Part shown: piece after piece, positions 1 through 14,650 of the stretch
Layout of the letters: every line of letters begins with the position of its first letter
Position numbering within the stretch: the stretch's first letter is position 1
Assembly (NCBI RefSeq): GCF_014204525.1
Contig: NZ_JACHLP010000013.1
Span: 1 to 64,000 of the forward strand
DNA length: 64,000 bases
DNA from: Roseateles oligotrophus
GTDB lineage: Bacteria > Pseudomonadota > Gammaproteobacteria > Burkholderiales > Burkholderiaceae_C
Reading direction: 5' to 3'
Notes under the pieces: model-generated
Databases searched by the model: none
What the model was told of the DNA's origin: nothing
What the model saw: the letters and a program-made list of their open reading frames with translations, nothing else
Made by a program: the position numbers and the translations under genes

Positions 1-456
1 GACGTGGACAAGTTCAAGCTCTTGGCCTTTGTGCTCTCGGCCGCGCTGGCTGGCCTGGCCGGTGCCACCAAGACCTTGGTGCTGGGCTTTGCCACGCTGA
101 CCGATGCCTTGTGGACCACCTCGGGCCTGGTCATCCTGATGACCCTGGTGGGCGGCATGGGCACCCTGGTCGGGCCCATGGTGGGCGCCCTCATCATCAT
201 CGCGCTGGAGAACAAGATCGGCGACCTGGGCAAGGCCCTGGCCGACGCCACGGGCGTGCAGTGGTTCAACGGCCTGGGCGAATCGGTCAGCCTGGTCACC
301 GGGCTGATCTTCATCGTCTGCGTGCTGGCGTTTCGGCGCGGGGTGGTGGGGGAGGCGCTGGCCTTGTGGGAGAGGCGGGGGGGGTGGGCGTTAGGAAAGA
401 GCGTCGGCTTACGCTGCGCTAAGCCGACCTACAAGCTCCCCATCAACAAGCCCTGA
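1..456 (+). CDS. LivM-type branched-chain amino acid ABC permease, C-terminal part
   Basis: The frame is open at the left edge, so only the last 150 or so residues are present. They show hydrophobic membrane segments and the glycine-rich stretch VGGMGTLVGPMVGAL, typical of the LivH/LivM inner-membrane permeases that import leucine, isoleucine and valine. A substrate-binding protein of the same system and valine-degradation genes follow, separated by a LysR gene on the other strand. The last 25 or so residues are hydrophilic and unlike the family. They follow a run of eight G (377-384), and with one G fewer the frame would stop at 392-394, in front of the hairpin at 403-428. As read, the stop overlaps the LysR gene by 28 bases. 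Family assignment is good; the exact C-terminus is doubtful. Confidence 0.85.
   Translation, partial: DVDKFKLLAFVLSAALAGLAGATKTLVLGFATLTDALWTTSGLVILMTLVGGMGTLVGPMVGALIIIALENKIGDLGKALADATGVQWFNGLGESVSLVTGLIFIVCVLAFRRGVVGEALALWERRGGWALGKSVGLRCAKPTYKLPINKP
403..428. terminator. hairpin between convergent livM and lysR genes
   Basis: A perfect 9-bp inverted repeat, GTCGGCTTA and TAAGCCGAC, with an 8-base loop. It abuts the LysR stop codon at 429-431 and lies just after the likely true end of the permease. There is no long T run. It probably ends transcription from both sides. Confidence 0.55.
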
Positions 457-1322
457 CTCTCCCCCACCACCTCGCGCAAGAACTTCCACAAGGCGTTGAC
501 CCGCGCGATATCGCGCTGTTCCTTGGGCGCGTAGAGCCAGAAGCTGCGCAGGATGGAGGCCTGGCCCGCCAACACAGGCTGCAAGTCGGCGCAGCCGCTG
601 GCCATGAAGCAGGGCAGCACGGCCAGGCCATGGCCGCGGCGGGCGGCGTGCAGCTGGGCCACGATGCTGGTGCTGCGCAAGGGCGTGGCCGCCGCGGGTG
701 CCAGCTTGGCCAGATAGCGCAGCTCGGCGCTGAAGGCCAGTTCATCCACATAAGCAATCAGGCGGTGCTGCTGCAAGTCGGCCAGCTGCCGGATCGGCGC
801 GTGCCGGGCCAGGTAGGCCGGGGTGGCGTAAAGGGCCAGGCGGTAGTCGGTCAGCTTGCAGGCCACATAAGCACCCTGGCGCGGGCGCTCGATGCTGATG
901 GCCAGATCGGCCTCGCGCTTGGACAGGTTGACGAAGCGCGGCACGGCCAGCAGGTCCACGCTGATGGCCGGGTGGCGCTCGCAAAAATCGGCCAGCTGCG
1001 GGGCCAGGAAGTAACTGCCAAAACCCTCGGTGGCGCCGAGGCGCACATGGCCGTGCAAGGCATGGCTGTCGCCGCCGATATCGGCGTCTGCCAGCGCCAG
1101 CGTGTCCTCGATGCGCTGCACCGACTCCAGCAGGCGCTGGCCCATGGCGGTGAGCCGGTGGCCTTGCGGGCTGCGATCGAACAGCTGGGTGCCTATGTCC
1201 TGCTCCAACTGCTTGAGACGGCGGGTGATGGTGGATTGATCCAGGTCCAGCGTGACCGCCGCCTCCATGGCCGAGCCCTGGCGGGCCACGGCCAGAAAGA
1301 CGCGCAGATTGTCCCAATTCAT
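429..1322 (-). CDS. LysR-family transcriptional regulator
   Basis: 297 residues, normal for the family. The N-terminal winged helix-turn-helix spans about residues 1-60 (DLDQSTITRRLKQLEQDIG is the recognition region) and is followed by a LysR substrate-binding domain. The start ATG at 1322 gives the canonical MNWDNLRVFLAV opening; the much longer open frame upstream is a shadow of mmsA. The gene is divergent from the branched-chain amino-acid binding protein gene at 1455, with 132 bases between them that hold a LysR-type box. It most likely controls that transport and valine-degradation cluster and itself. The effector is unknown. Confidence 0.9.
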   Translation of the reverse strand: MNWDNLRVFLAVARQGSAMEAAVTLDLDQSTITRRLKQLEQDIGTQLFDRSPQGHRLTAMGQRLLESVQRIEDTLALADADIGGDSHALHGHVRLGATEGFGSYFLAPQLADFCERHPAISVDLLAVPRFVNLSKREADLAISIERPRQGAYVACKLTDYRLALYATPAYLARHAPIRQLADLQQHRLIAYVDELAFSAELRYLAKLAPAAATPLRSTSIVAQLHAARRGHGLAVLPCFMASGCADLQPVLAGQASILRSFWLYAPKEQRDIARVNALWKFLREVVGESQGLLMGSL

Positions 1323-1356
1323 CTTCACAACCAGGCCCTCCGGGTTCTCCAGGATC

Positions 1357-1370
1357 TTGCAAAAACGCAA
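1357..1370. promoter_or_regulatory. possible LysR-type operator (T-N11-A)
   Basis: TTGCAAAAACGCAA is a dyad, TTGC-N6-GCAA, containing a T-N11-A spacing. It sits 35-48 bases upstream of the LysR start and about 85-98 bases upstream of the divergent binding-protein gene. That is the usual place for an autoregulatory LysR box. Only one site was noted, so this is tentative. Confidence 0.4.
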
Positions 1371-1454
1371 GCCTGTTGCGCATTTTCCTCGCTTCGCCTT
1401 GCATAGCCGCAGGCCTACATTCAGGCCGGCGCAAACAAGATCGGAGACAAGGAC

Positions 1455-2699
1455 ATGGCACCCAGGTATTTGAATTTGAAGGCGAGCGCCGCGGCCTGCG
1501 CGCTGGCCCTGCTCAGCCCCCTGCCGGCACTCGCCGCGCCCGGCCAGATTTCTGACGGCGTCGTCAAGATCGGCATCCTCACCGATATGTCGGGCGCCTA
1601 CTCGGGCATGGGCGGGCCGGGCTCGGTGGTGGCGGCGCAGATGGCGGTGGACGACTGCCTGCGCGGGCCTTGCAAGGGCATGAAGATCGAACTGCTCTCG
1701 GCCGACCACCAGAACAAGCCCGACATCGCCTCCGGCAAGGCGCGCGAATGGCTGGACCGCGACAAGGTCGATGCCCTGGCCGACCTGACCAACTCGGCCG
1801 GCGCCCTGGCCGTCCAAAAGCTGATCAAGGAAAAAGGCGGCATCGCCCTCTACAGCGGCCCGGCCACCACCCGCCTGACCAATGAGGATTGCGCGGCCAA
1901 CGGCTTCCACTGGATGTTCGACACCTATGCCATGGCCAATGGCGCGGCGGCCACGCTGACCAAGAACGGCATGAAGAACTGGTACTTCCTGACCGTGGAC
2001 TATGCCTTCGGCCATTCGCTGGAGAAGGACACCGGCGAGATCGTGCGCGCCAACGGCGGCAAGGTGCTGGGCAGCGTCAGGCACCCGCTGGGCGCCAGCG
2101 ATTTCTCCTCCTTTTTGCTGCAGGCGCAAAGCTCCAAGGCCCAGGTCATAGGCCTGGCCAATGGGGCGCAGGACACGGTCAATGCCATCAAGGCGGCACG
2201 CGAGTTCGGTGTGGGTGGCAAGGATCAGCAGATCGCCGCCCTGCTGGTCTTCCTGACCGATGTCCATGCCCTGGGCCTGGAGACGGCGCAGGGCCTGAGC
2301 TTCACCGATGGCTTCTACTGGGATATGGACGAGGCCACGCGCGGCTTTGCCGCCCGCTTCGCCAAGCTGCACAAGGGCGGCGCCAAGCCCACCATGGTGC
2401 AGGCGGGGGTCTACTCCAGCGTGCTGCATTACCTGAAGTCGGTGGCGGCCCTGGGCAGCGACGACTCGACCCTGGTGGCCAAGAAGATGCGCGAGCTGCC
2501 CATCGAGGACGCGGTGATGCGCAATGCCAGCATCCGGCCGGACGGCCGGGTCATCCACGATATGTATCTCTTCCAGGTCAAGAAGCCGGCCGAGTCCAAG
2601 GCGGCCTGGGACTATTACAAGCTGGTCAGCACCATCCCCGCCGCCAGCGCCTTCAAGCCGCTGGAGCAATCCAGCTGCGAACTGATCAGCAAGAAGTAA
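1455..2699 (+). CDS. branched-chain amino acid ABC transporter substrate-binding protein
   Basis: 414 residues. An N-terminal signal peptide (about residues 1-27, ending LPALAA) exports it to the periplasm. The mature part starts VVKIGILTDMSGAYSGMGG, the opening of the type I periplasmic binding fold used by LivJ/LivK-like proteins (Peripla_BP_6). It captures an amino acid or related small carboxylate and delivers it to a LivHM permease such as the one ending at 456. mmsA begins 7 bases after its stop, so the two are probably cotranscribed, which points to valine or another branched-chain substrate. The exact ligand cannot be read from the sequence. Confidence 0.88.
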   Translation: MAPRYLNLKASAAACALALLSPLPALAAPGQISDGVVKIGILTDMSGAYSGMGGPGSVVAAQMAVDDCLRGPCKGMKIELLSADHQNKPDIASGKAREWLDRDKVDALADLTNSAGALAVQKLIKEKGGIALYSGPATTRLTNEDCAANGFHWMFDTYAMANGAAATLTKNGMKNWYFLTVDYAFGHSLEKDTGEIVRANGGKVLGSVRHPLGASDFSSFLLQAQSSKAQVIGLANGAQDTVNAIKAAREFGVGGKDQQIAALLVFLTDVHALGLETAQGLSFTDGFYWDMDEATRGFAARFAKLHKGGAKPTMVQAGVYSSVLHYLKSVAALGSDDSTLVAKKMRELPIEDAVMRNASIRPDGRVIHDMYLFQVKKPAESKAAWDYYKLVSTIPAASAFKPLEQSSCELISKK

Positions 2700-2705
2700 G
2701 ACACC

Positions 2706-4205
2706 ATGACTGAAATCACCCGCCTGAGCCATCTGATCGATGGCAAGCCCTATGCCTCCGCCAGCACGCAGTGGCGCGATGTGATCAACCCCGCCACGCA
2801 AGAAGTCCTGGCCCGCGTGCCCATGGCCACGGCGGCCGAGGTGGAGCTGGCCGTGGCCAGCGCCAAACAAGCCTTCAGCAGCTGGCGCAATAGCTCGCTG
2901 GGCAGCCGCATGCGCATCATGCTGAGGCTGCAGCAGCTGGTGCGCGAGCACACGCCGCAGCTGGCCGAGCTGATCACCCGCGAGCATGGCAAGACCCTGC
3001 CCGATGCCGAGGGCGAGGTGGCGCGCGGGCTGGAGGTGATCGAGCATGCCTGCGCCATCCCGACGCTGCAGCTGGGCGAGATCGCCGAGAACGCCGCCAG
3101 CGGCGTCGAGGTCTACAACCTGCTGCAGCCCCTGGGCGTGGGCGCCGGCATCACCGCCTTCAACTTCCCCGTCATGCTGCCCTGCTTCATGTTCCCGCTG
3201 GCCCTGGCCACCGGCAACTGTTTTGTGCTCAAGCCCTCGGAGCAAGACCCCAGCTCGACCCTGCTGCTGGCCGAGCTGGCCCAACAAGCCGGCCTGCCGC
3301 CGGGCGTGCTCAACATCATTCACGGTGGGCCCGAGGTGGCCGACGCGCTGTGCGACCACCCCGACATCAAGGCCCTGTCCTTCATCGGCTCCACCCAGGT
3401 CGGCACCCATATCTACCGCCGCGCCAGCGCGGCCGGCAAACGGGTGCAGGCCATGATGGGGGCCAAGAACCACTGCGTGGTCCTGCCCGACGCGAACAAG
3501 GAGCAGGCCATCAACCACCTGATCGGCTCGGCCTTCGGCGCGGCCGGCCAGCGCTGCATGGCCAACTCGGTCTTGCTGCTGGTGGGCGAGGCGCAGAGCT
3601 GGCTGCCCGAGATCGTCGCCAAGTCCAAGGCCATGAAGGTCGGCCCCGGCACGGACCGCCAGGTCGATGTCGGCCCCCTGGTCAACCCACGCGCCCTGGA
3701 GCGGGTGCGCCGCCTGATCGACAGCGGCGAGGCCCAGGGCGCCCGCCTGCTGCTGGACGGCCGCGACTGTGTCGTGCCCGGCTTTGAACGCGGCAATTTC
3801 ATAGGCCCGACGATTTTTTCGGAAGTGAAGCCCGGCATGGCGGTGTATGACGAAGAGATCTTCGGCCCCGTGCTCTGCGTCATCGGCGTGGACAGCCTGG
3901 ACGAGGCCATCGCCTTCATCAACGCCAACCCGAATGGCAACGGCACGTCCATCTTCACGGCCAGCGGCTGGGCGGCGCGCAAATACCAGAACGAGATCGA
4001 TGTGGGCCAGGTCGGCATCAATGTGCCCATCCCGGTGCCGGTGGCCTATTTCAGCTTCACCGGCTCGCGCGCCTCCAAGCTCGGCGACCTGGGGCCTAAC
4101 GGCAAGCAGGCCCTGAGCTTCTGGACCCAGAGCAAGACCGTCACCGCCCGCTGGTACGAGCCCGGCCAGGGCAGCAGCCGGGTCAACACCACCATCGCTT
4201 TGTGA
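2706..4205 (+). CDS. mmsA: CoA-acylating methylmalonate-semialdehyde dehydrogenase
   Basis: 499 residues, the full family length. It oxidises methylmalonate semialdehyde (and malonate semialdehyde) to propionyl-CoA or acetyl-CoA with NAD and CoA, the last step of valine degradation. It has the aldehyde dehydrogenase fold with [16 protein letters not shown] in the N-terminal NAD region and the nucleophile in GQRCMANSV at Cys284. FNFPVM and the long C-terminal block [14 protein letters not shown] are typical of MmsA rather than of general aldehyde dehydrogenases. It follows the binding-protein gene by 6 bases and is followed by mmsB. Confidence 0.95.
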
Positions 4206-4248
4206 GCATCCCAGGCCCCTGGCGGTGCCCGGCGTTCGTGGAAAAAAA

Positions 4249-4332
4249 TGCAACCACAGAGTCACGGAGACACAGAGGTGAATCGGCTTTCTGGCTTGCA
4301 TTTCTCAGTGCCTCTGTGCCTCTGTGGTTGCA
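4249..4332. repeat. imperfect inverted repeat of the CCACAGAG type
   Basis: The outer arms TGCAACCACAGAG and CTCTGTGGTTGCA pair perfectly over 13 bases. Inner CACAGAGG/CCTCTGTG blocks pair again around a central loop of about 25 bases. The whole element fills the mmsA-mmsB gap. It resembles a dispersed intergenic CACAGAG repeat seen in several proteobacteria. It could form a stable hairpin in the mmsAB transcript and lower or stabilise expression of the distal gene. Confidence 0.7.
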
Positions 4333-4368
4333 TTTCGGAAATTTGTTTCTGGTGAGAAGGAGCTACCC

Positions 4369-5253
4369 ATGAACACCGCCTTCATCGGCCTGGGCCATAT
4401 GGGCCTGCCCATGGCCTTGAATCTGCTCAAGGCCGGCCTGGCCCTGAGCTGCTACGACCTCGCCGAGGCCCCGCTGGCCCAGGCCCAGGCCGCCGGCGCG
4501 CGCCGCGCCGCCGGCATCGCCGATGCGGTGACCGGGGCCGATGTCGTCATCACCATGCTGCCGGCCTCGCGCCATGTGGAGGGTGCTTATCTGGAAGCCG
4601 ACGGCGGCATCCTCGCCCATGCGAAAGCGGGGGCGCTTTTGATCGATTGCTCCACCATCGCCCCGGCCTCGGCCATCCGAGTCGCACAGGCTGCGGCCGA
4701 GCGCGGCCTGGCCATGATCGACGCCCCCGTCTCCGGCGGCACGGCCGGTGCCCAGGCCAGCAGCCTGACCTTTATGGTCGGCGGCGAGGCGGCGGCCTTG
4801 GAGCGCGCCCGCCCCTGGCTGGAAAAGATGGGCAGCAATATCTTCCACGCCGGCGCCAGCGGCTGCGGCCAGACGGCCAAGGTCTGCAACAATATGCTGT
4901 TAGGCATCCTGATGCTGGGCACCTCGGAGGCCTTGCGGCTGGGCATTGCCAACGGCATGGACCCGGCGGCGCTGTCGCAAATCATGAGCAAAAGCTCGGG
5001 CCGCAACTGGGCGCTGGAGCTCTACAACCCCTGCCCCGGCGTGATGCCCCAAGCGCCGGCCTCGCGCGGCTACCAGGGCGGCTTCGGCGTGGACCTGATG
5101 CTCAAGGACCTGGGCCTGGCCGTGGAGGCCGCGCACAGCCATGCCGCCGCCACACCGCTGGGCGAACTGGCCCGCCAGCAGTATCAGCGCCTCAGCGAGC
5201 AAGGCCATGGCGGGCTGGATTTCTCCTGCGCCTTCGCCTACCCGGAGCATTGA
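4369..5253 (+). CDS. mmsB: 3-hydroxyisobutyrate dehydrogenase
   Basis: 294 residues. It oxidises 3-hydroxyisobutyrate to methylmalonate semialdehyde with NAD, the step before MmsA in valine breakdown. The N-terminal dinucleotide motif FIGLGHMGLPMA (residues 4-15), the DAPVSGGTAGA substrate loop and the catalytic Lys171 in GCGQTAKVCNN are all present. I chose ATG 4369 because AGAAGGAG lies just upstream and the protein then begins directly with the Rossmann strand; an in-frame start at 4324 would add an unusual leader inside the repeat element. It is probably in one transcript with mmsA despite the 163-base gap. Confidence 0.93.
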   Translation: MNTAFIGLGHMGLPMALNLLKAGLALSCYDLAEAPLAQAQAAGARRAAGIADAVTGADVVITMLPASRHVEGAYLEADGGILAHAKAGALLIDCSTIAPASAIRVAQAAAERGLAMIDAPVSGGTAGAQASSLTFMVGGEAAALERARPWLEKMGSNIFHAGASGCGQTAKVCNNMLLGILMLGTSEALRLGIANGMDPAALSQIMSKSSGRNWALELYNPCPGVMPQAPASRGYQGGFGVDLMLKDLGLAVEAAHSHAAATPLGELARQQYQRLSEQGHGGLDFSCAFAYPEH

Positions 5254-5362
5254 AAGTACAGCGGGGTGGCGGCGCCCCAACGCCCGCCCGTCCCCGGTGC
5301 AAAGCGGGCGCTGAGCGCGCAGCGTTCTGGGCTAAGCTGGCGGCACCACCAGCAGCCCATGA

Positions 5363-6541
5363 ATGCCAATCCGCATGAATAGCGAACTTCTGGCCGCAGA
5401 AAACCAAGCCCTCAAACAGCAGTTGCAAAGCCTGTTGCACGAGGCCAGGCTCAACGAAGACAAGATGCAGCGCTTCGAGCGCCTGGAGCATCAGCTGATC
5501 GCCGCGCACTCCCTGCAGGGCCTGGTGAGCCTGCTGCTGAGGGCCTACAAGCAGGCCTTTGCCATCGACCATGTGGCCCTGCTCCTGCTCGACCCGGCCG
5601 GCGAGGTCGACCGCATGCTGCAGACCGAGACCGGCAGCCTGGACGCGCTGCCGGGCCTGCGCCTCTACCCGGCCCACAGCGGCGCCAGGCTGCTGGAGGC
5701 CGCCTACTGCGGCACGCGCAAACCGCGGCTGGGCGCTTTCGACGCCGGGCTGCATGCGCAGCTGTTCGCGCCGGCGGCCGCCCCAGACATTCGGTCCATG
5801 GCCTTGCTGCCCCTGGCCCGCCACGGCCAGCTGATCGGTGGCCTGCATTTCGGCAGCGTCGATGCGGCGCGTTATGAGGCCGGCGCGGGCACCCATCTGC
5901 TGGAGCGCCTGGCCAATATCGTGGCCGTCTGCCTGGAAAGCGCCTTCAACCAGGAACGCCTCAAGCGGCTCGGCCTGACCGACACCCTGACCGGCGTGCA
6001 CAACCGCCGCTATTTCGAGCACCGCTGCCTGATCGAGATCGCCCAGGCGCGGCGCTACCGCCACCCCCTGGCCTGCTTATTCCTCGATGTGGACAAGTTC
6101 AAGAGCATCAACGACCGCTTCGGCCATGCCACCGGCGACGAGGTGCTGCGCGGCATCGGCCATCTGATCCAGGGCCAGCTGCGCGCCGGCGACACGATTG
6201 CCCGCTACGGCGGCGAGGAGTTCGTCGTGCTGCTGCCGCAGACCTCGGCCGAGTTCGCCCGCGAGATCGCCGAGCGCATACGCGCCAGCGTGGCCCAGCA
6301 GCGCTTCGTCGCCGCCGCGCCCCTGCCGGACGGCAGCGGCAGCGAGACCCCGGCCGCCGCCGCCACCCTGAGCGTCACCGCCTCCCTGGGCCTGGCCATG
6401 CTGCCGAGCGACACGGCCGGCATGGAAGCCTCGGCCGTGGCCGAACGCCTGGTGGCCGCGGCCGACCAGGCGCTCTACCAGGCCAAGGAGCTGGGCCGCA
6501 ACCGGGTGGTCGCTGCCGACCGCCCCGCAAGCACCTCGTAA
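5363..6541 (+). CDS. GAF-like/GGDEF diguanylate cyclase
   Basis: 392 residues, soluble. A short N-terminal coiled coil (about 5-45) precedes a GAF/DUF484-like sensory domain (about 45-200) and a C-terminal GGDEF domain that makes c-di-GMP from two GTP. The active-site motif is GGEEF (in ARYGGEEFVVLLPQ), and an RAGD inhibitory I-site lies five residues before it, so it should be active and subject to product feedback. An alanine/proline-rich insertion interrupts the domain after the active loop. A second in-frame ATG at 5375 could be used; neither has a clear ribosome binding site. It ends 7 bases from the convergent caspase-like gene. Confidence 0.9.
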   Translation: MPIRMNSELLAAENQALKQQLQSLLHEARLNEDKMQRFERLEHQLIAAHSLQGLVSLLLRAYKQAFAIDHVALLLLDPAGEVDRMLQTETGSLDALPGLRLYPAHSGARLLEAAYCGTRKPRLGAFDAGLHAQLFAPAAAPDIRSMALLPLARHGQLIGGLHFGSVDAARYEAGAGTHLLERLANIVAVCLESAFNQERLKRLGLTDTLTGVHNRRYFEHRCLIEIAQARRYRHPLACLFLDVDKFKSINDRFGHATGDEVLRGIGHLIQGQLRAGDTIARYGGEEFVVLLPQTSAEFAREIAERIRASVAQQRFVAAAPLPDGSGSETPAAAATLSVTASLGLAMLPSDTAGMEASAVAERLVAAADQALYQAKELGRNRVVAADRPASTS

Positions 6542-6548
6542 ACGCGGC

Positions 6549-7505
6549 CTATCTTGCCGCGAGGCCAAAGCCAGGGCGGCTGCTCAAGGCCCCGACGAAC
6601 TGGGGGTGGGGAAAGGGCCGCTCCCGGTAGCTCGCGCGTAAGGCCTCGGCCAGGTCCAGAAAGCTGCCCTGCCAGCCCCGCAAGGCCAGCGCCAGCCGGT
6701 AGGTGAAGAGGCCGTAGCGCTGCCTGGGCCCGCCGTCCGGGGCGGGCAGCAACTCCTCCAGCGCGCCCTCGTCCTCCTGGGCGGCGAAAAAGCCCACGAA
6801 CTGCCCCTCCACACCGGCGGACGGGTGCCGCTCGGCCGGCGGCGGCCGCTGCAAGCCGCCGCGCTGCAGCCCCTCCTGCCAGCGGGCCAGCCACAGAGGC
6901 AGCGGGATCTGCAGTTCCAGCGGCGAGGCATAACGCCAGGTCTCGGCGTGGCCAGGCCGGCGCAGCAGATCCGCCGCATGGCAGGTGTCCAGCACCGCCC
7001 AGACATGGGCGCCGCGGCTGCGTATGCGCTGCAGGGCCTGGCCGATCTCGCGGTCCGGCAGGGCGCCTTGCACGGCCTGCTGCTCGGCGCTCCAGCGCCA
7101 GGTGTCGCGCGGCAGAAAGACCTCTTGCAGGCCGTCGGCCTCGCGCCGGCCGCCGCTCTTGCGCCAGGCCTGCTGCGGCTGCGGCACTTGCGCGCCATGG
7201 CCGGACAGATAGACCAGCACCCAGTCGCCCGCCCGCGCCTGGCCGGCCAGGCGGGCCAGGTTCTGGACGATGGCGGCCCGGGTCGGCGGCTCGCCCGAGG
7301 CCTCGGACAAGACCCGCACCTGGCCGGCCTCGAAGCCCAGTTCGGCCAGCGAGCGCGCCATCAGCGCCACATCATTGGCCGGGCCTTCCAGGCTTTTGCC
7401 CGGCAGATGGGGGTAGGCGCTGACCCCCACCAGCAAGGCATGGTTGGCCGCCAGGGCCGTGCCGGCCAGCAGGCTCAGGCCCACAGCGCCGCACCAGCGC
7501 CTCAT
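6549..7505 (-). CDS. secreted caspase-like (peptidase C14) protein
   Basis: 318 residues. A signal peptide (about 1-19, ending GTALAA) precedes a caspase fold beginning HALLVGVSAYPHLPGKSLEG. The catalytic His103 lies in YLSGHGAQ and Cys175 in LDTCHAADL, so the dyad is intact. Family members cleave after Arg/Lys or Asp; the preference here is not readable. The start ATG (7505-7503) overlaps the stop TGA of the upstream TPR-CHAT gene (7504-7502), an ATGA junction that implies translational coupling. The product should act in the periplasm with the TPR-CHAT protein. Its start inside a longer open frame was chosen for the ATGA overlap and signal peptide. Confidence 0.85.
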   Translation of the reverse strand: MRRWCGAVGLSLLAGTALAANHALLVGVSAYPHLPGKSLEGPANDVALMARSLAELGFEAGQVRVLSEASGEPPTRAAIVQNLARLAGQARAGDWVLVYLSGHGAQVPQPQQAWRKSGGRREADGLQEVFLPRDTWRWSAEQQAVQGALPDREIGQALQRIRSRGAHVWAVLDTCHAADLLRRPGHAETWRYASPLELQIPLPLWLARWQEGLQRGGLQRPPPAERHPSAGVEGQFVGFFAAQEDEGALEELLPAPDGGPRQRYGLFTYRLALALRGWQGSFLDLAEALRASYRERPFPHPQFVGALSSRPGFGLAAR

Positions 7506-10456
7506 GCCCCGTGCAGCACAAAAGCCGCCCAGACCCGCGGGTCGCGCAGCCTGGCCTGGCCGTGGCGCATGAACTCGCGCTTGCTCAGGGCCAGGGCCTG
7601 CGCCTGGCTCAGGCCCTGGCGCAGATGTTTGAAAAAGCGGGTGACGAAGAGGGCGGTCTCGCGGTCGGCCACCGGCCACAGCGTGGCCAGGGTATTGCCG
7701 TTGCCGGCCACGAAGAGGGCGTAAGACATGCCGACCAGGCCCTCGCCGTTGACGACCCGCCCGCGCGCCGTGTCGCAGGCCGACAGCACGACCAGCTCGC
7801 TGGCCAGGCGCAGCGGCAGCCATTCGGCCACGGAGACAAAGCCGTCGTGCAGCACGTCCTCACCATCGGGCTTGAGCACCAGGCTGGAGAACTCGGGCTG
7901 CTCGGGGTCGAAGTAGCCATGGGCGCTGAACAGCAGGTAGCGAAAGCGCGCCAGCTCGCCGCTGTCCGAGAGCTGGCGCAAGCGCGTCTCGGTGGCGCCG
8001 TCCGCGCTGATCTGCAGCACCTGGGCGGGCGGGAACAGGGCCGCCACCTGCTCCATCTCGTAGCGCGCAAACGGCAGGCGCGGCCAGGCCGAGCGGGCCA
8101 GGGCCTGGCCGGCCTCCTGCAGATTGCGGGCCGAGCGCAGCAGGCCGGAGCGCGAGCGCTGGGCACCATCCGCCGCCTGGGCCTCGTCCGACTGCGGGTA
8201 GCTGGGGTCGCCAAAAGCCAGCAATTGCCGCTCGGCGGCCTGCTCGCCCAGGCGCTGCGCCTGCCTTTGCCGCACCATCTTCAGGGCCGCGAAGCTGTGC
8301 ACCTGCTGGGTCGCCAGGCTTTGGCCCAGCGGCCTGCCCCGCCAGGGCAGGCTGTCCCAGGGCAGCAGCCAGAGCGGGCCGTCGGGGGCGATCAGCAGGC
8401 GGGTGCCGGCGGGCAGGCTGGCCTGCAGAGGCTGCAGCAAGGCCTGGGCCAGTTGCTGGCCCAGGGCCTGCACGGCCTGCGGCGCGCCGACCGAGGTGGC
8501 CCCGGCGGGCTGGCAGTCCGCCTCGGCCGCGGGCGCCGGGGGCAGCAACAACATCGGCACTTGCGCAGCGGCCTGGCTGGGCCCGGCCTCGCCGCAGGGC
8601 TGCGCGGCGCCGGGGCGGCGCCAGCGCCATTGCCCGGCCTCCTGCCAGCGCAGCAGGCGCTGGCTGCCGCCCTCCCCGGCCAGCAGGCTGCGGTACAGCG
8701 CCACCTGTTCGGCCAGCCGGGGCTGGGGGCCCAGATCGTGCCAACGCAGGCGCGCGGCTGAGTCGAGGGTGAAGGCCCGCACACGCTGCTCGGCATCCAG
8801 CAGAAAACTAAGGAACACCTCCCCCGGCCTCAGCAGGCCGGCCGCCTCGGCGGCCTGGGCCTGCGGCGGCCGGGACAGCAAGGCATAGGCCGGATGCTGG
8901 GCCGCCAGCCGGCTTTGCAGCTGGCGCAGCTCGCGGCTGTGCTGCTGCGCCTGTGCCTGGGCCGCCTGGCGGGCCGGCGGGTTCTGCGCCCGGGCCCGCG
9001 CCGCCTCGGCCAGGGCCAGGTCTTGCTGCAGCTGGCGCAGGCCTTGGGCGTCTTCCGTGGGCAGGCCGGCCTGGGCGGCGGCCTGGCCCTGCGCCATCTG
9101 CTCCAGCAGCACGCGGGCCTTGCTCAGCTCCATCAGCTCAAAAGCCTGCTGCGGCCGCCCCTGCGCCAGCAGCAGGTCCATCAGGCGGTGGTAGACGGTG
9201 GCATGCAGCTGCAGCCATTCGCGGCGCTGGGCGGCCGACATCTCGGCCACCTCGCCGCGCTGCTGCTCCAGGCTCTCGACCAGGGCTTGCAAGGTCTGCA
9301 CGGCGGCGGGGCGCTCGCCCAGGGCGGCCTGGGCCTGGGCCAGGCCATAGCGGGCGGCCACCACATCGCCGCCGCCGCGTACGCCCAGCTGCTCAAAACC
9401 CTGCACGGCTTGCTGCAGCGTCGCCCGCGCCGCCGGCCACTGGCCCAGCTGGCCTTGCGCCGCGCCCAGCAGCTGGCGCGCCCGCAAGCCATAGGCCTGC
9501 TCGGCCGTGCCGCTGCGCTCAAACAAGGCCAGGTCTTGCTGCAAACCCGCCTGCGCCTGCTCGGCCTGGCCCAGGGCCAGCAGGCTGTAGGCCAGGCCGC
9601 TGCGCAGGCGCAGCGTCAGGGCGTGCTCGGGGCCCAGGGCGGCCGTGACCGCAAGCACCGCGGCGGCATAGGCCTGCCGGGCTTCTTCAAAACGACCCAG
9701 GCGCATCAGGATGGCGCCGTAGTTGTGGACGGACATGGCGGTGTCGGAATGGCCCTCGCCCAGCGTTTCCCGGCGCAGCGCCAGGGTCTGCTGGGCCAGG
9801 CTCAAGGCCTCGTCCAGCCGCCCGGTCTCCGCCAGGGCCGTGCCGTAATTGGCCATCATGGTCAGCGTGTCCGCATGCCGCAGGCCCAGGCTTTGCTGCT
9901 GGGCCTGCATGGCGCGCTCGAACAGGCGGCCCGCAGCATCCCACTCGGCCAGGCGGCTCAGGCAGGCGGCCAGGTTTTGCAGCGTCATCAGGGTCAGCTC
10001 ATGCTGGGGGCCCAGCACCCGCTCCTGCAGGGCCAGGGCTTGCTGCCCCAGTTGCTTGGCCTCACGGAAGCGGGCGTTGTAGAGCAGGGCGACGCTTAGA
10101 TTGCTCATATCCGTCAGCGTGCGCTGATCCTCCTCGCCATGCAGCTCGCGGCGCAGCGGCAACAGCTGCTGGCGCAGTGCCAGGCTGTCGGCGTAACGGC
10201 CCAGCTCGCTCAGGGTGGTGCCCATCAGGCTGAGCAGCTCCAGGCTGCGGGGGTCGCGCTCACCCCATTGCCGGCGCGCCTCGCTCAGGGCCGGCTCCAG
10301 GCGCTGCAGCGCGGCATCGGGCCGGCCCTCGTCCAGCAAGGCATTGACCTCGAGCAGCGCCGGAGAGTCGCTGGCCGAGTCCTGCACCGCCATGGCACCG
10401 CCCCAGGCATGGACGGCCGCAAGACCCAGCAGGGCCGACAAGATTGTTTTTCTCAT
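7502..10456 (-). CDS. secreted TPR-CHAT cysteine protease
   Basis: 984 residues. A signal peptide (about 1-23, ending GGAMA) is followed by tandem TPR-like helical repeats (about 30-340, repeated blocks of the type LGEGHSDTAMSVHNYG), a Gln/Ala-rich helical region (about 400-540) and a C-terminal CHAT domain (about 640-984). The CHAT dyad is intact: His846 in FSAHGYF and Cys894 in LSACDTARG. CHAT domains are caspase/separase relatives, and the TPR part usually recognises a partner. The gene is divergent from the ECF-like sigma gene (112 bases apart) and coupled to the caspase-like gene. Unlike cytoplasmic TPR-CHAT proteases this one carries an export signal. Confidence 0.88.
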   Translation of the reverse strand: MRKTILSALLGLAAVHAWGGAMAVQDSASDSPALLEVNALLDEGRPDAALQRLEPALSEARRQWGERDPRSLELLSLMGTTLSELGRYADSLALRQQLLPLRRELHGEEDQRTLTDMSNLSVALLYNARFREAKQLGQQALALQERVLGPQHELTLMTLQNLAACLSRLAEWDAAGRLFERAMQAQQQSLGLRHADTLTMMANYGTALAETGRLDEALSLAQQTLALRRETLGEGHSDTAMSVHNYGAILMRLGRFEEARQAYAAAVLAVTAALGPEHALTLRLRSGLAYSLLALGQAEQAQAGLQQDLALFERSGTAEQAYGLRARQLLGAAQGQLGQWPAARATLQQAVQGFEQLGVRGGGDVVAARYGLAQAQAALGERPAAVQTLQALVESLEQQRGEVAEMSAAQRREWLQLHATVYHRLMDLLLAQGRPQQAFELMELSKARVLLEQMAQGQAAAQAGLPTEDAQGLRQLQQDLALAEAARARAQNPPARQAAQAQAQQHSRELRQLQSRLAAQHPAYALLSRPPQAQAAEAAGLLRPGEVFLSFLLDAEQRVRAFTLDSAARLRWHDLGPQPRLAEQVALYRSLLAGEGGSQRLLRWQEAGQWRWRRPGAAQPCGEAGPSQAAAQVPMLLLPPAPAAEADCQPAGATSVGAPQAVQALGQQLAQALLQPLQASLPAGTRLLIAPDGPLWLLPWDSLPWRGRPLGQSLATQQVHSFAALKMVRQRQAQRLGEQAAERQLLAFGDPSYPQSDEAQAADGAQRSRSGLLRSARNLQEAGQALARSAWPRLPFARYEMEQVAALFPPAQVLQISADGATETRLRQLSDSGELARFRYLLFSAHGYFDPEQPEFSSLVLKPDGEDVLHDGFVSVAEWLPLRLASELVVLSACDTARGRVVNGEGLVGMSYALFVAGNGNTLATLWPVADRETALFVTRFFKHLRQGLSQAQALALSKREFMRHGQARLRDPRVWAAFVLHGA

Positions 10457-10530
10457 GGGATTCCATTGTTGTCAGTCCAAGATCGCCGGCAGGCATCTTG
10501 CCACGGGCGATCAGCGCACGGGCGCGGCTT

Positions 10531-10561
10531 GGCCTGACAATGCGCGCGCACCCCGCTCTTC
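10531..10561 (+). promoter_or_regulatory. candidate ECF promoter upstream of the sigma gene
   Basis: GGCCTGACAA, 14 bases, GCTCTTC. The identical bipartite arrangement with the same spacing recurs at 11913-11943 before the lipoprotein gene. Such paired boxes in front of a sigma gene and a neighbour are typical of ECF autoregulation. GCTCTTC ends only 7 bases before the sigma ATG at 10569, so the transcript would be nearly leaderless. Confidence 0.6.
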
Positions 10562-10568
10562 CCTGCGG

Positions 10569-11231
10569 ATGAACGCGCTTGATATGCCTGCCCGACCCTT
10601 GTTCGACGCCCCCGCCTTCCTCCAGGCCCTGCGGCTCGGTGGCTCCGCCGCCGAGCGCGCCACGCTGGGCCTGCTGCAGCATTACCGGCCCTTGCTGCGC
10701 GCCTGGCTGCGCACCGCCGGCGTGGCGGCCGGCGATGTCGATGACTTGATCAGCGAGATCCTGTTCAAGGCCGTCACCGGCGCCCATGCCCTGCGCTCGG
10801 CGGCGGCCTTCCACAGCTGGCTGATGCAGATTGCCCGGCACGAGCTGGGCGCACATTGGCAGCAGCGCCAGCGCGAGCGGCAGCTGTTTGTGAACACCCC
10901 GCCCGGCCCGGAGGCCGAGGTCGCCGAGGCCCTGAACCTGCTGGAGCAATGGCCCGACGAGGGCCTGTCCGACCCCTTGCTGCGCCTGTGCCTGCAGGGC
11001 CAGCTGGCGCACTTCAAGCAGCAGTCTCAGGAGCGCCATGCCTGCATCACCCTGATCGCCCTGGGCCATGAGGCCGCCGAGATTGCCGAGCTGATCGGGC
11101 GCAGCTACGGCGCCACGCGCCAGTACATGAGCCAGTGCTGCGCCGCCCTGCTGGAGGCCTTGAAGCCCTGCCTGAGCGAGGCCCAGCAACAAAGCCTGAA
11201 ACGGGGCCAGGCCCAAGGAGTGAAGCCATGA
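10569..11231 (+). CDS. ECF-like RNA polymerase sigma factor
   Basis: 220 residues. Residues about 20-95 form sigma region 2, with PLLRAWLR, DDLISEILFKAV and FHSWLMQIARHELGAHW resembling the core-binding and -10 recognition helices. A second helix-turn-helix at about 165-205 (EIAELIGRSYGATRQYMSQC) fits region 4, which reads the -35 element. The linker is longer and the sequence more divergent than in classical RpoE. The ATG at 10569 is preceded by no strong ribosome site; ATG 10584 is an alternative. It overlaps the next gene by ATGA (11228-11231), the standard layout of sigma/anti-sigma pairs. Confidence 0.78.
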   Translation: MNALDMPARPLFDAPAFLQALRLGGSAAERATLGLLQHYRPLLRAWLRTAGVAAGDVDDLISEILFKAVTGAHALRSAAAFHSWLMQIARHELGAHWQQRQRERQLFVNTPPGPEAEVAEALNLLEQWPDEGLSDPLLRLCLQGQLAHFKQQSQERHACITLIALGHEAAEIAELIGRSYGATRQYMSQCCAALLEALKPCLSEAQQQSLKRGQAQGVKP

Positions 11232-11884
11232 AGAACGAGCACAAGCCAGACCCGGGCCTGGACCCGCAGGCTTGCTGGGACGCGCTGAGCGCGCGCGCGG
11301 CCGGCGCGGGCCAGGCCAGCGCCCGCGCCGGCCGGCTGCTGCGCGAGCTCTTGCAGCAGGCGCCGCCGGACGAGGCCGAGCAGCGTCGCGACGCCCAGCT
11401 CGACCAGGCCTTGCTGCAGCGCTTGCGCGCCAACGGGGCCCTGGCCGGTGACCGCCCGGCCCGGCGGCCCTTCTTCGGCTGGCGGCTTGGCGCGGCGGGC
11501 TCCGGCCTGGCCCTGGCCGGCCTGGCGGCCCTGCTGCTCTGGCCCGGCGGGCCCGAGCCAGCACTGCACGGCGATGCCCAGGACGAGGCCGGCCGCATGC
11601 GTGGCGACGCAGCGGCGCAGACGCTGCAAGTCCAGAATCCACAGGCCTGGAGCGAGGATCTGCAAGCCTTGCTGCAGCGCCAGCAGATCCCGCTGCGCAT
11701 CACGGCGCTGGGCGGCGGGCGCCTGGAGCTGCAAGCCCAGCTGCCGCCAGACGACGCGCAAGCGCCCGCGCTGCGGCAAGGCCTGGCACAGCGCGGCGTG
11801 CAAGCGCCCAGAAAGGGCCGGCTCTGGCTGCTGCTGACGCCGCTGCCCGGCAGCGCTGCCGCGGCTTCGGCAAGCGCTCGGTGA
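11228..11884 (+). CDS. single-pass membrane protein, candidate anti-sigma factor
   Basis: 218 residues, no recognised family. The N-terminal 80 residues are charged and helical (cytoplasmic by the positive-inside rule, RPARRPFF just before the membrane). One transmembrane helix spans about 84-106. A periplasmic tail of about 110 residues follows. No zinc-binding HxxxCxxC anti-sigma motif is present. The ATGA overlap with the sigma gene and the topology match anti-sigma factors of the RseA/FecR type, hence the inferred role of sequestering the sigma factor until the periplasmic part is sensed or cleaved. The function is inferred from position and topology only. Confidence 0.6.
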   Translation: MKNEHKPDPGLDPQACWDALSARAAGAGQASARAGRLLRELLQQAPPDEAEQRRDAQLDQALLQRLRANGALAGDRPARRPFFGWRLGAAGSGLALAGLAALLLWPGGPEPALHGDAQDEAGRMRGDAAAQTLQVQNPQAWSEDLQALLQRQQIPLRITALGGGRLELQAQLPPDDAQAPALRQGLAQRGVQAPRKGRLWLLLTPLPGSAAAASASAR

Positions 11885-11894
11885 TAGGGGATTT

Positions 11895-11912
11895 CCCGGG
11901 TTTGCGCCCGGG
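11895..11912. terminator. GC hairpin after the sigma/anti-sigma pair
   Basis: CCCGGG, a 6-base loop, CCCGGG, immediately after the anti-sigma candidate and directly before the second promoter-like motif. There is no T run, so it is a weak terminator candidate that may simply insulate the next promoter. Confidence 0.3.
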
Positions 11913-11943
11913 GGCCTGACAAATGCGCGGCAAGACGCTCTTC
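11913..11943 (+). promoter_or_regulatory. candidate ECF promoter upstream of the lipoprotein gene
   Basis: GGCCTGACAA, 14 bases, GCTCTTC, a match in both boxes and in spacing to 10531-10561. The intervening bases are partly shared as well (TGCGCG). It ends 32 bases before the ATG at 11976. This predicts that the lipoprotein is a target of the adjacent sigma factor. Confidence 0.6.
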
Positions 11944-11975
11944 ACCAACGTCATTGACCCCAGAAAGCCCAAGCC

Positions 11976-13703
11976 ATGCCTACGCCTTACTCAGCTCCTG
12001 CGACTCCCTGCCCCTCGCCTGCCCTCCCACTGATCGCCCTCAGCCTGGCCACAGGCCTGCTGCTGACGGCTTGCGGCGGCGATGGCGGGGCCGGCCAGAC
12101 CCCGGCACCCGCGCCCGCGCCAGCACCCGCTCCGGCCTTCAAGGGCGTCAGCCTCGGCGGCACGGCCGCCGTTGGCCTGGCCCTGGCCGGCGCCAAACTG
12201 GAGGCCAAATGCAGCGTGGGCGCGGGCAGCACCACGACCGCCAGCGACGGCAGCTACAGCCTCAAGATGGACGGCGCGGCCCTACCCTGCGCGCTGCGCC
12301 TGAGCAGCAGCGATGGCAGCCGCGTCCTGCACTCCCTGGCCGAGGGCACGGGCAGCGCGGCCGAGGGCCTTGTCACGACCGCCAATATCAGCCCCCTGAC
12401 CGAGCTGGTGCTGGCCAAGCTGGCCGGCAGCGCCAGCACGCCGGCCGAGCTGTACGCCGGCTACAACGCCGCCAACAGCCCGACGGCGGCCCAGATCGCC
12501 CAGGCCAAGAGCGCGGTGGCGGCCGCGCTCAAACCGGTGCTCAACCTGGACGGCATCGACCCCATCAGCAGCGCTTTCAAGGCCGCTACCGCGGCCGGCA
12601 CGCCCGGTGACGCCACCGACCAGAAGCTCGACACCTTGATGGCCGCCCTGGCCCGGGGCAAGACCACGCTGGCCGCACTCGCCAACACCCTGCTCAGCAG
12701 CGGCTCGGCCGAGGCGGCGGCCGCCGCCGTCAGCGCCGCCCTCACAGCGCCACCGCTGGCCGACTGCCCCACGCTGCGCAGCGGCAGCTATGCCATGGTC
12801 AGCCGCCGCGGCGAAGTGCAGGAAATGCAGCTCGACCTCGCCCGCATGGAGGCCAGCGACGCCCAGAGCACGCTCAAACTCGTCGCCACGGCCGAGGCCT
12901 GCCGCTTCGCCGGCCTGGATGGCCAGGGCCGCAAGCAGGTCGAGATCGCCTTCGGCGCGCAAGCCGTGGGCCTGGGCGTGACCGAGGCCGACGCCCAGGG
13001 GGACCGCGGCACCGCCCTGTTCTTCCCCAAGCAGACCTTGGCACTCGCCGATCTGGCCGGCGCCTGGACGCTGGTGGACTGGGATCAGCCCTCCTCGACC
13101 CAATTGCCGCGCTTAGGGCTGGCCAGTGTCACGCTGGCGGCCGACGGCGGCTTCGTCGCCCAGGGCTGCACGCAGACCGGCGGCGTCGCCGATTGCAGCG
13201 ATCCGGCGCGCAAAAACCAGGGGCAGATCAGCCTGAACGCCAAGGGCCAGCTGCAGCTACCCGGCGGCGCCCTGGGTTATGCCTTCCGCAGCAGCGACGG
13301 GACGCAGATGCTGGCCTGGGGCAAGCCCAATGGCGGCGGCATGACGCTGCTGAGCCGGGCCAAACCCCTGGCCCTGCCGGCCGTGGGCAGCAGCTACAAG
13401 GCCTGGGAATCCAATGGTTATGCCGCCCTGCCCGCCCCGGACGTGTTTGTGGCCCAGGCCCTGGGCGCGTTTGAGACCCGCTTCAGCACCGCCGATGCCG
13501 CGGCCGGCAGCTTCGGCACGACGGAAGGCGTGCTGCTGTTCGCCAACAAGCCCCTGCCCGGCCTGGTCTACCGGCCGGCCGGCCAGAGCGGCGGCAAGAG
13601 CTGGACCGAAGGCGTGCTGCTGGAGGTGAAGGGTCTGCTGTATGTGATGGGCAGCGGCGACGCCAACCAGGCCTCGCTCATCCTGGCCTTGCAAAAGCCC
13701 TGA
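11976..13703 (+). CDS. outer lipoprotein of unknown function
   Basis: 575 residues. The signal peptide ends in a lipobox LLTAC with lipidated Cys33, then GGDGGAG and a Pro-Ala repeat linker (about 41-54). Residues about 55-110 look like a small beta domain of the carboxypeptidase-regulatory type ([17 protein letters not shown]). The rest is Ala-rich helical (about 110-260) and then beta-rich with no recognised family. It is preceded by the same promoter-like boxes as the sigma gene, so it may be the envelope target, sensor or substrate of the sigma/protease locus. No catalytic motif was seen. Confidence 0.75.
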
Positions 13704-13738: not shown

Positions 13739-14650
13739 ATGAGTTCCATCGCCTCGCCCACCCCCTCCCGCCTGCAGCTCTACCTCCAGCTGATACGCTG
13801 GGACCGCCCGGCCGGCTGGCTGCTGCTCTTGTGGCCCACGCTGTCGGCCCTGTGGATCGCCGCCGACGGCTGGCCGGGCTGGCATTTGCTGAGCGTCTTC
13901 ACGCTGGGCACGGTGCTGATGCGCTCGGCCGGCTGCTGCGTCAACGATGTGGCCGACCGCGACTTTGACAAACACGTCAAGCGCACGGCCAATCGCCCCG
14001 TCACCAGCGGCGCGGTCTCGGTCAAGGAAGCCTTGGGGCTGGGCGCGCTGCTGGCCCTGGCCTCGTTCGGCCTGGTGCTGACGAGCAATCCCCCCACCAT
14101 CCTGCTCAGCTTCGCGGCCCTGGCCGTGACCCTGCTCTACCCCTATGCCAAGCGGGTGCTGAATATGCCGCAGGCGGTGCTGGGTGTGGCCTTCAGCTTC
14201 GGCATCCCGATGGCGTTTGCGGCCGCGCTGGGCGGCAATGAATGGAGCCTGGCGGCCATCCAGGCGGCGGTGCCGCGTTCGGCCTGGGCCCTGCTGCTGG
14301 CCAATCTGTTCTGGGTGCTGGCCTACGACACCGAGTACGCCATGGTCGATCGCGACGACGACATCCGCATCGGCATCAAGACCTCGGCGCTGACGCTGGG
14401 GCGTTTCGACGTGGCCGGCGTGATGGCCTTCTACGCCATCTATCTGGGCAGTTGGGCGGCCCTGGGCCTGCGCCTGGGCCTGGGCTGGATCTTCCTGGCC
14501 GGCGTGGCCGTGGCCGCCGCACAAGTGCTCTGGCATTACCGCCTGATCAAGGACCGCAGCCGCGAAGGCTGCTTCAAGGCCTTCCGCGAAAACCACTGGC
14601 TGGGTTTCGCCGTTTTCGCCGGCACGGTGCTGGACCTGGCAATGCGTTGA
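13739..14650 (+). CDS. ubiA: 4-hydroxybenzoate polyprenyltransferase
   Basis: 303 residues, full length. An inner-membrane enzyme that joins the polyprenyl chain to 4-hydroxybenzoate in ubiquinone synthesis. Both aspartate-rich motifs that bind Mg-diphosphate are present: NDVADRDFD in the first half and [12 protein letters not shown] in the second, with about eight to nine hydrophobic helices. Chorismate lyase (ubiC), which makes its substrate, lies nearby on the opposite strand at 15279-15857. Confidence 0.95.

Follow-up and report, generated by a model that had tools for sequence, protein, structure and literature searches.

The window, the whole 64,000-nucleotide stretch that was analysed, belongs to a contig (G000:C13) of the 5.34-Mb genome of Roseateles oligotrophus. 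Between positions 6549 and 13703 it encodes two putative proteases, an extracytoplasmic function (ECF) sigma factor, a single-pass transmembrane (TM) protein proposed as its anti-sigma factor and a large lipoprotein, and a relay from the membrane to gene expression is proposed for this set. The minus strand codes for a TPR-CHAT protease (7502–10456, 984 amino acids; Pfam PF12770 (CHAT) at 3.3e-57 and TPRs) and a C14 caspase/metacaspase-like peptidase (6549–7505, 318 amino acids; PF00656 (Peptidase_C14) at 4.2e-19). The two genes overlap in an ATGA at 7502–7505. Divergent from them, on the plus strand, lie the sigma factor gene (10569–11231, 220 amino acids; Pfam Sigma70_r2 at 3.2e-9) and the TM-protein gene (11228–11884, 218 amino acids), joined by an ATGA at 11228–11231. 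The lipoprotein gene follows on the same strand (11976–13703, 575 amino acids); its product has the lipobox LTAC and matched no Pfam family. An earlier sequence-only reading of the window had described this divergent arrangement of two ATGA-coupled pairs with a lipoprotein behind them, and all parts were present.

Region 2 of the sigma protein scores above the Pfam cut-off and region 4 below it; a profile of the sigma family matches ECF sigma structures over both regions (best E 5.7e-16). The caspase reaches 69.6 bits with Pfam C14 (curated cut-off 21.4) and the CHAT protein 194.6 bits (cut-off 24). The His/Cys dyads that had been noticed in both proteases were found again, as His103/Cys175 in the caspase and His846/Cys894 in the CHAT protein. 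Among the proteases of the compared loci, the dyad is intact in 20 of 20 caspases and in 30 of 31 CHAT proteins; these counts include locus L102, whose TM protein falls outside the family. Signal peptides had also been assigned to both window proteases. A signal-like N-terminus is visible on both and recurs in 26 of the 31 CHAT proteins and 15 of the 20 caspases, judged by a crude hydrophobicity score with a threshold of 2.0 rather than by a SignalP-type prediction. On this score the assignment falls short for the window caspase, which at 1.88 is just below the threshold. The N-terminus RRHFLK of the L093 protease is presumably Tat-like.

Recurrence of the gene set

The sequence-only reading presupposed that these genes stay together, and they are neighbours in related as well as distant genomes. 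The TM-protein family is represented by 37 distinct loci; in 36 of them a sigma factor is encoded, and in 36 at least one CHAT or caspase homologue lies within 10 kb. CHAT proteins are present in 27 loci, strong caspases in 19 and both types in 12, while two loci have weak caspase homologues only. The presence of CHAT-only, caspase-only and two-protease loci suggests that either protease can serve. The control consisted of 20 zf-HC2 anti-sigma loci in relatives (from 26 places): 19 had a sigma factor, and none had a CHAT protein, a caspase or a member of the TM-protein family. A chance neighbourhood of common genes in one strain could draw on the wide distribution of its parts, as 26 of 59 related genomes contain CHAT-like matches and ECF genes are frequent. 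Such a coincidence is already contradicted by the recurrence of the set in other genera against the empty zf-HC2 control and is extremely improbable.

The count of 37 loci is partly selected, because the loci behind the profiles had first drawn attention by their proximity to proteases. The TM-protein profile was also used to search genome samples for places outside the own genome. The 399 genomes of the bacterial family contained 12 (E ≤ 1.7e-8), none of them a profile seed and all with a sigma factor and a CHAT protein, a caspase or both; one of them, L171, has weakly matching caspases only. Eight places were found in 399 genomes of the order (E ≤ 1e-15), one of them a profile seed (L090). 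Six of the seven non-seed places have a CHAT protein or caspase (weak homologues only in L189), and the seventh lies on a 4.3-kb contig. The sole confident place in 398 genomes of the phylum is also a seed (L125). According to these samples, the system is rare and patchy. Weaker profile matches were left out (six in the family, eight in the order and six in the phylum sample), and the seeds G050:C2:304415 and G814 in the order and phylum samples were not counted as independent. A tblastn search for the TM protein on plasmids gave no match at E ≤ 1e-5.

Duplicates were dropped from the 37 loci (L082, identical to L163; L191 to L125; L061 to L081; L070 to L090; L065 to L111), together with L085 as a near-copy of L084, L100 on the contig of L189 and L066 as a cut relative of L065. 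L102 stands outside the 37 because its TM protein is not of the family. L190 was taken as outside the family as well; it has a weak profile match (1.3e-5) and a sigma factor, and no protease. Genome G022 is represented by locus L103.

A search that started from the caspase found the TM protein in 17 of 80 loci (the best 80 of 320 relatives), mostly in Beta- and Gammaproteobacteria and once in a Mariprofundus, according to the names in the records. Roseateles metagenome-assembled genomes, with 53% and 48% identity, are the nearest relatives that have a name among the caspase loci. Around relatives of the sigma factor and of the CHAT protein, the same gene types were present in other arrangements. 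The own genome has a second sigma/TM-protein/CHAT set (L077; G000:C12, 885–9222), next to which a PEP-CTERM surface protein and a caspase of a different subtype are encoded.

The membrane protein and its Arg-Gly motif

The single TM helix that had been read from the sequence of the anti-sigma candidate was confirmed as one hydrophobic stretch, residues 87–105 (11486–11542, plus strand), with the positive side inside. Topology prediction yields one helix, an N-terminus inside and a C-terminal periplasmic domain. Net charge is positive in the 20 residues before the stretch in 28 of 30 proteins and negative in the 20 residues after it in 24 of 30. An AlphaFold2 model (16 sequences; mean predicted local distance difference test (pLDDT) 76) places helices between residues 13 and 68 and the TM helix at 91–104. 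The linker 107–125 has a pLDDT below 50 and is predicted to be disordered, and Arg125 stands at its end. The periplasmic domain, residues 131–205 (11618–11842, plus strand), is predicted with the order strand-helix-strand-strand-helix-strand; ten-residue pLDDT means are 90–96, except for 77 at 171–180. The name ferredoxin-like is our own label for this order of strands and helices, and a comparison of the domain with known folds yielded weak matches only (best E 0.33). The window protein matched no Pfam or NCBIfam family at E ≤ 0.001, and none of five relatives matched a family in Pfam.

Arg125 and Gly126 are encoded at 11600–11605 on the plus strand. The Arg is present in 36 of 37 relatives and a Gly follows in 30 of 37, identically in three alignment modes; Arg125 is also invariant in smaller independent alignments of 25 and 16 rows. 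The residue preceding the conserved Arg is Met, Leu, Trp or Tyr in 29 of 36 proteins. In an Arg-anchored comparison of 36 proteins from position −14 to +15, entropy is 0.18 bits at the Arg, 1.03 bits at the next position and at least 2.28 bits elsewhere. The distance from the TM stretch to the Arg varies between 8 and 23 residues (median 14; 30 proteins). The linker contains few other basic residues: Lys and Arg apart from the conserved Arg make up 12 of 397 residues (3.0%), compared with 10.8% in the domain and 14.1% in the N-terminal part, and 25 of 36 linkers have none. The Arg was set by eye in 6 of the 36 proteins for the entropy and linker analysis, and the recount with 37 proteins and three modes agrees. 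As a control, a hydrophobic residue followed by Arg-Gly occurred in the same region of one of nine zinc-finger anti-sigma factors with a TM stretch.

Judged from the alignment and the model, the conserved hydrophobic-Arg-Gly looks like a candidate site for a single cut by a site-1 protease, in the window between Met-Arg and Gly. Such a site was absent from the sequence-only reading. A structural or docking role of the Arg-Gly is another explanation. It could contact lipid headgroups or form the domain edge, while the periplasmic domain would control the proteases or bind a ligand and sigma release would proceed without a cut there. Only some five residues separate Arg125 from the first domain strand, and the Arg is kept regardless of the protease type; both are in line with such a role. 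The predicted disorder of the linker, the variable distance to the membrane and the scarcity of Lys and Arg nearby favour a single cut site over a fold, and the structural explanation is decidedly unlikely. The only member of the 37 that lacks the Arg is L171, with a Leu in this place; its caspases are of another kind and match weakly. Its replaced Arg offers a natural test of changed specificity. Five caspase-like genes stand in a row beside the sigma/TM pair of this locus (2–9655).

The relatives of the two proteases prefer basic residues. By sequence, the nearest solved chains of the window caspase are metacaspases (E 1.6e-16). The model of the TPR-CHAT protein (mean pLDDT 74) matched the folds of separase (E 1.8e-12), DdvA (2e-11; PDB 8rot and 8rw5, which we take from their names to be Myxococcus DdvA) and Csx29 (5e-11), with global TM-scores that are low throughout (0.2–0.4). 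Separase (C50) and metacaspases (C14B) belong, like the window proteases, to clan CD; those compared are eukaryotic, unlike the proteins studied here, and have unrelated substrates. In the available part of a study on metacaspases, the preferred P1 residue is Arg or Lys for metacaspases and Arg for separase, and Cys92, Asp95, Ser156 and Asp211 of the trypanosome metacaspase TbMCA2 are assigned to a potential S1 pocket (PMC4357240). By our own matching, which follows motif spacing, the last three correspond to Asp45, Ser101 and Asp173 of the window caspase and Cys92 is replaced by Pro42. The acidic S1-type residues Asp45 and Asp173 (window numbering) are kept in 20 of 20 caspases.

Promoter boxes and the lipoprotein gene

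Shared promoter-like boxes, a further element of the sequence-only reading, were identified as TGACAA-N15-CTCTTC at 10535–10561 before the sigma gene, where autoregulation would result, and at 11917–11943 upstream of the lipoprotein gene, both on the plus strand. They are the only two exact sites of TGACAA-N15/16-CTCTTC in the whole genome; the reversed control had none. Recurrence in relatives was found by a two-block scan. An exact box precedes the sigma gene in L081, L162 and L163, and in L162 and L163 a second one is located between the TM-protein gene and a lipoprotein gene. The second exact box of L081 points off the contig; in this locus, a one-mismatch box with a gap of 14 lies before a lipoprotein gene at a distance of about 8 kb from sigma. 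The eight exact boxes of the window and these three loci are thus distributed as four before sigma, three before a lipoprotein gene and one off the contig, and none is directed toward a CHAT or caspase gene.

Minor observations concern the boxes and the sigma start. In the window (10535–10590), the box ahead of the sigma gene ends eight bases short of its ATG, and the spacing in L081 is similarly short. The sigma protein could also start at a second ATG in the same frame, at 10584. With the short spacing, the sigma transcript may lack a leader, or translation may start at 10584. In addition to the exact box at 7735, L163 has a one-mismatch box at 7501 upstream of sigma, and another one-mismatch box was found at G000:C7:272034.

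The lipoprotein had been considered as a possible protease substrate. Its gene is more likely one of the targets of the sigma factor: it bears the promoter box of the sigma gene, as do lipoprotein genes in two relatives, and on this sequence evidence the protein probably represents output rather than substrate. An identity of the lipoprotein across relatives was considered and dropped, as no sequence homology of the window lipoprotein to theirs was found; position and promoter alone are common to the window, L162 and L163. The sigma output may be an interchangeable surface protein. Neighbours in other loci include a PEP-CTERM protein in L077, an Ig-domain lipoprotein in L162 and Calx-beta repeat proteins in L167 and L168. 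The latter are very large and encoded directly after the CHAT gene, at 596–5131 in L167 (11 matched stretches) and at 11864–15709 in L168 (nine), in two genomes of one genus.

The proteases themselves could be the output. An ordinary ECF sigma/anti-sigma pair would then sense envelope stress via a general DegS-type site-1 protease, and the CHAT and caspase proteins would be effectors, for instance in surface-protein processing. The genes of sigma factor, TM protein and caspase are consecutive and run in one direction in L084, L090, L092, L110, L112 and L125, an order in which autoregulation would induce the caspase, and large surface proteins adjoin in several loci. None of the eight exact boxes faces a protease gene, however, and a general protease would not account for a single kept Arg amid scarce basic residues. 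We consider this explanation rather unlikely.

Proposed relay and known systems

In the proposed relay, the ECF sigma factor would bind the single-pass anti-sigma candidate and be held at the inner membrane. An envelope signal, which the TPR region of the CHAT protein might sense, would activate one or both clan-CD proteases after their presumed export to the periplasm; TPRs would be a natural sensor or adaptor. The CHAT protein, the caspase or one through the other would cut after Arg125, and the small C-terminal domain would be shed. An RseP-type site-2 protease and cytoplasmic proteases would finish the degradation and free the sigma factor, which could then transcribe its own operon and one neighbouring surface lipoprotein gene. 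The genome encodes an RseP homologue that scores above its cut-off. A membrane-to-gene relay with its own proteases, in which CHAT or caspase releases sigma by a cut at Arg125, is proposed with modest confidence, somewhat above even. A wider proposal is evenly poised between right and wrong. It holds that secreted caspases and separase-like CHAT proteins are dedicated site-1 proteases of this ECF sigma/anti-sigma family, possibly acting in series; they would cut between hydrophobic-Arg and Gly, close to the outer face of the membrane, and control transcription of surface proteins, not death, in a CRISPR-free system.

Several observations weigh against the relay. The recognised anti-sigma domains RseA_N, zf-HC2, FecR and RskA were not found in the TM protein. 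Of the 80 loci that surround related caspases, 63 yielded no such TM protein, and this caspase family therefore also acts in other settings. The Arg is conserved equally in CHAT-only and caspase-only loci; either both protease types use one site or the Arg serves some other purpose. The sole CHAT protein without a dyad, the own-genome paralogue in L077, is missing the stretch that holds both residues. Five of 20 caspases and five of 31 CHAT proteins fail the signal score, some of which look like wrong or split gene starts. Sigma, TM-protein and caspase genes are co-directional in many loci, and the protease could be output as well as input. The longer box pattern with up to two mismatches has 11 genome sites compared with five in the reversed control; the weaker boxes are thus indistinguishable from chance, and a larger regulon of weaker sites is possible.

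The closest parallel in wiring is type III-E CASP with Csx29, Csx30 and CASP-sigma, where a TPR-CHAT protease is likewise paired with an inhibitor, here a candidate, of an ECF-like sigma factor. In the available part of its description, the CHAT protease cuts Csx30, the inhibitor of CASP-sigma, and a parallel to RseA is remarked upon; the word 'periplasm' is absent from that text (Strecker 2022, PMC10028731). Unlike in CASP, the window proteases look exported, the candidate inhibitor is a 218-amino acid membrane protein instead of Csx30, and the proposed site is a periplasmic Arg-Gly. A CHAT-domain profile run against the PDB at E ≤ 1 matched seven sequences with E values from 3e-4 to 0.18, every one of which is named TPR-CHAT, CHAT domain protein or Csx29. 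The TM-family profile matched only two nitrogenase-associated PDB chains at E ≤ 1, and Csx30, whose presence in the PDB is taken from the title of 8eey, was not matched. In agreement with the sequence-only reading, which had assumed that no CRISPR is involved, no CRISPR effector was found. The RAMP family PF03787 (Cas7-like) had no match in the genome, the control search being positive in 4 of 14 genomes, and the eight flanking window proteins that were scanned matched no cas family. One partial Cas1 match is located on another contig. Without a RAMP match and with a lone partial Cas1 elsewhere, a type III-E effector is not in sight. PADLOC assigned a caspase model and a weak BovA (CHAT) match among the five proteins and nothing to the other three.

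The predicted topology resembles that of RseA in the RseA-DegS-RseP system and of other anti-sigma factors subject to regulated intramembrane proteolysis: a single-pass protein with a cytoplasmic N-terminal part, a short periplasmic linker and a candidate site-1 near the membrane, and an RseP-type enzyme in the genome. It differs in that clan-CD cysteine proteases are encoded next door and the TM protein has no RseA-type domain in Pfam. The site-1 proteases named in the available part of a review, DegS, DegP, SipS, SipT and Prc, are all serine enzymes (PMC7593790). Metacaspase genes were reported in sigma-70 operons of Myxococcus, Anaeromyxobacter, Haliangium, Sorangium, Ralstonia and Fibrobacter; that description, in its available part, mentions neither an anti-sigma partner nor a CHAT protein, a cut site or a promoter (Asplund-Samuelsson 2012, PMC3501461).

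DdvA of Myxococcus xanthus, the anti-sigma factor of the ECF sigma factor DdvS according to the available text (PMC4374960), is comparable in that the fold search with the TPR-CHAT model ranked its structure among the best matches. This resemblance suggests that anti-sigma and TPR/CHAT-like functions may be fused in DdvA. It appears as a single chain from the record title and the fold match, whereas the anti-sigma candidate and the TPR-CHAT protein are separate genes here. The CHAT-domain profile had no sequence match to DdvA in the PDB. The CRISPR CASP-sigma wiring, the sigma-metacaspase operons (2012) and DdvA are already known. A literature search, whose scope lay outside the main ECF classification (Casas-Pastor 2021), returned no account of the TM-protein family, of its Arg-Gly site or of an exported CHAT or caspase acting on an anti-sigma factor.

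If the relay exists, the coupling of protease and sigma factor known from type III-E CRISPR has a counterpart that faces the envelope and works without CRISPR. To our knowledge, little is known about which proteins bacterial caspase homologues and most CHAT proteins cleave in nature. The family supplies a specific candidate substrate, with the predicted cut narrowed to a single bond, and a promoter that is usable as a reporter, and the relay would give the little-understood bacterial caspases a job. In the available part of the 2012 survey, 70 of 217 metacaspase operons were left without a function (PMC3501461). Clan-CD cysteine proteases would also join the site-1 proteases of sigma release, which the review, as far as available, names as serine enzymes (PMC7593790).

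The five-gene set is flanked by genes for a GGDEF protein (5375–6541) and UbiA (13739–14650). Further arrangements were observed around caspases. Six loci with Rhodobacterales-type names (L118, L129, L131, L136, L144 and L157) each contain a pair of caspase genes on opposite strands, separated by about 6 kb, and no sigma/TM pair; this is another caspase context that recurs. A small family of proteins of about 106–247 amino acids, mostly with a signal-like start, recurs in L091, L093, L098, L102 and L125 and is encoded near the caspase gene in four of them.

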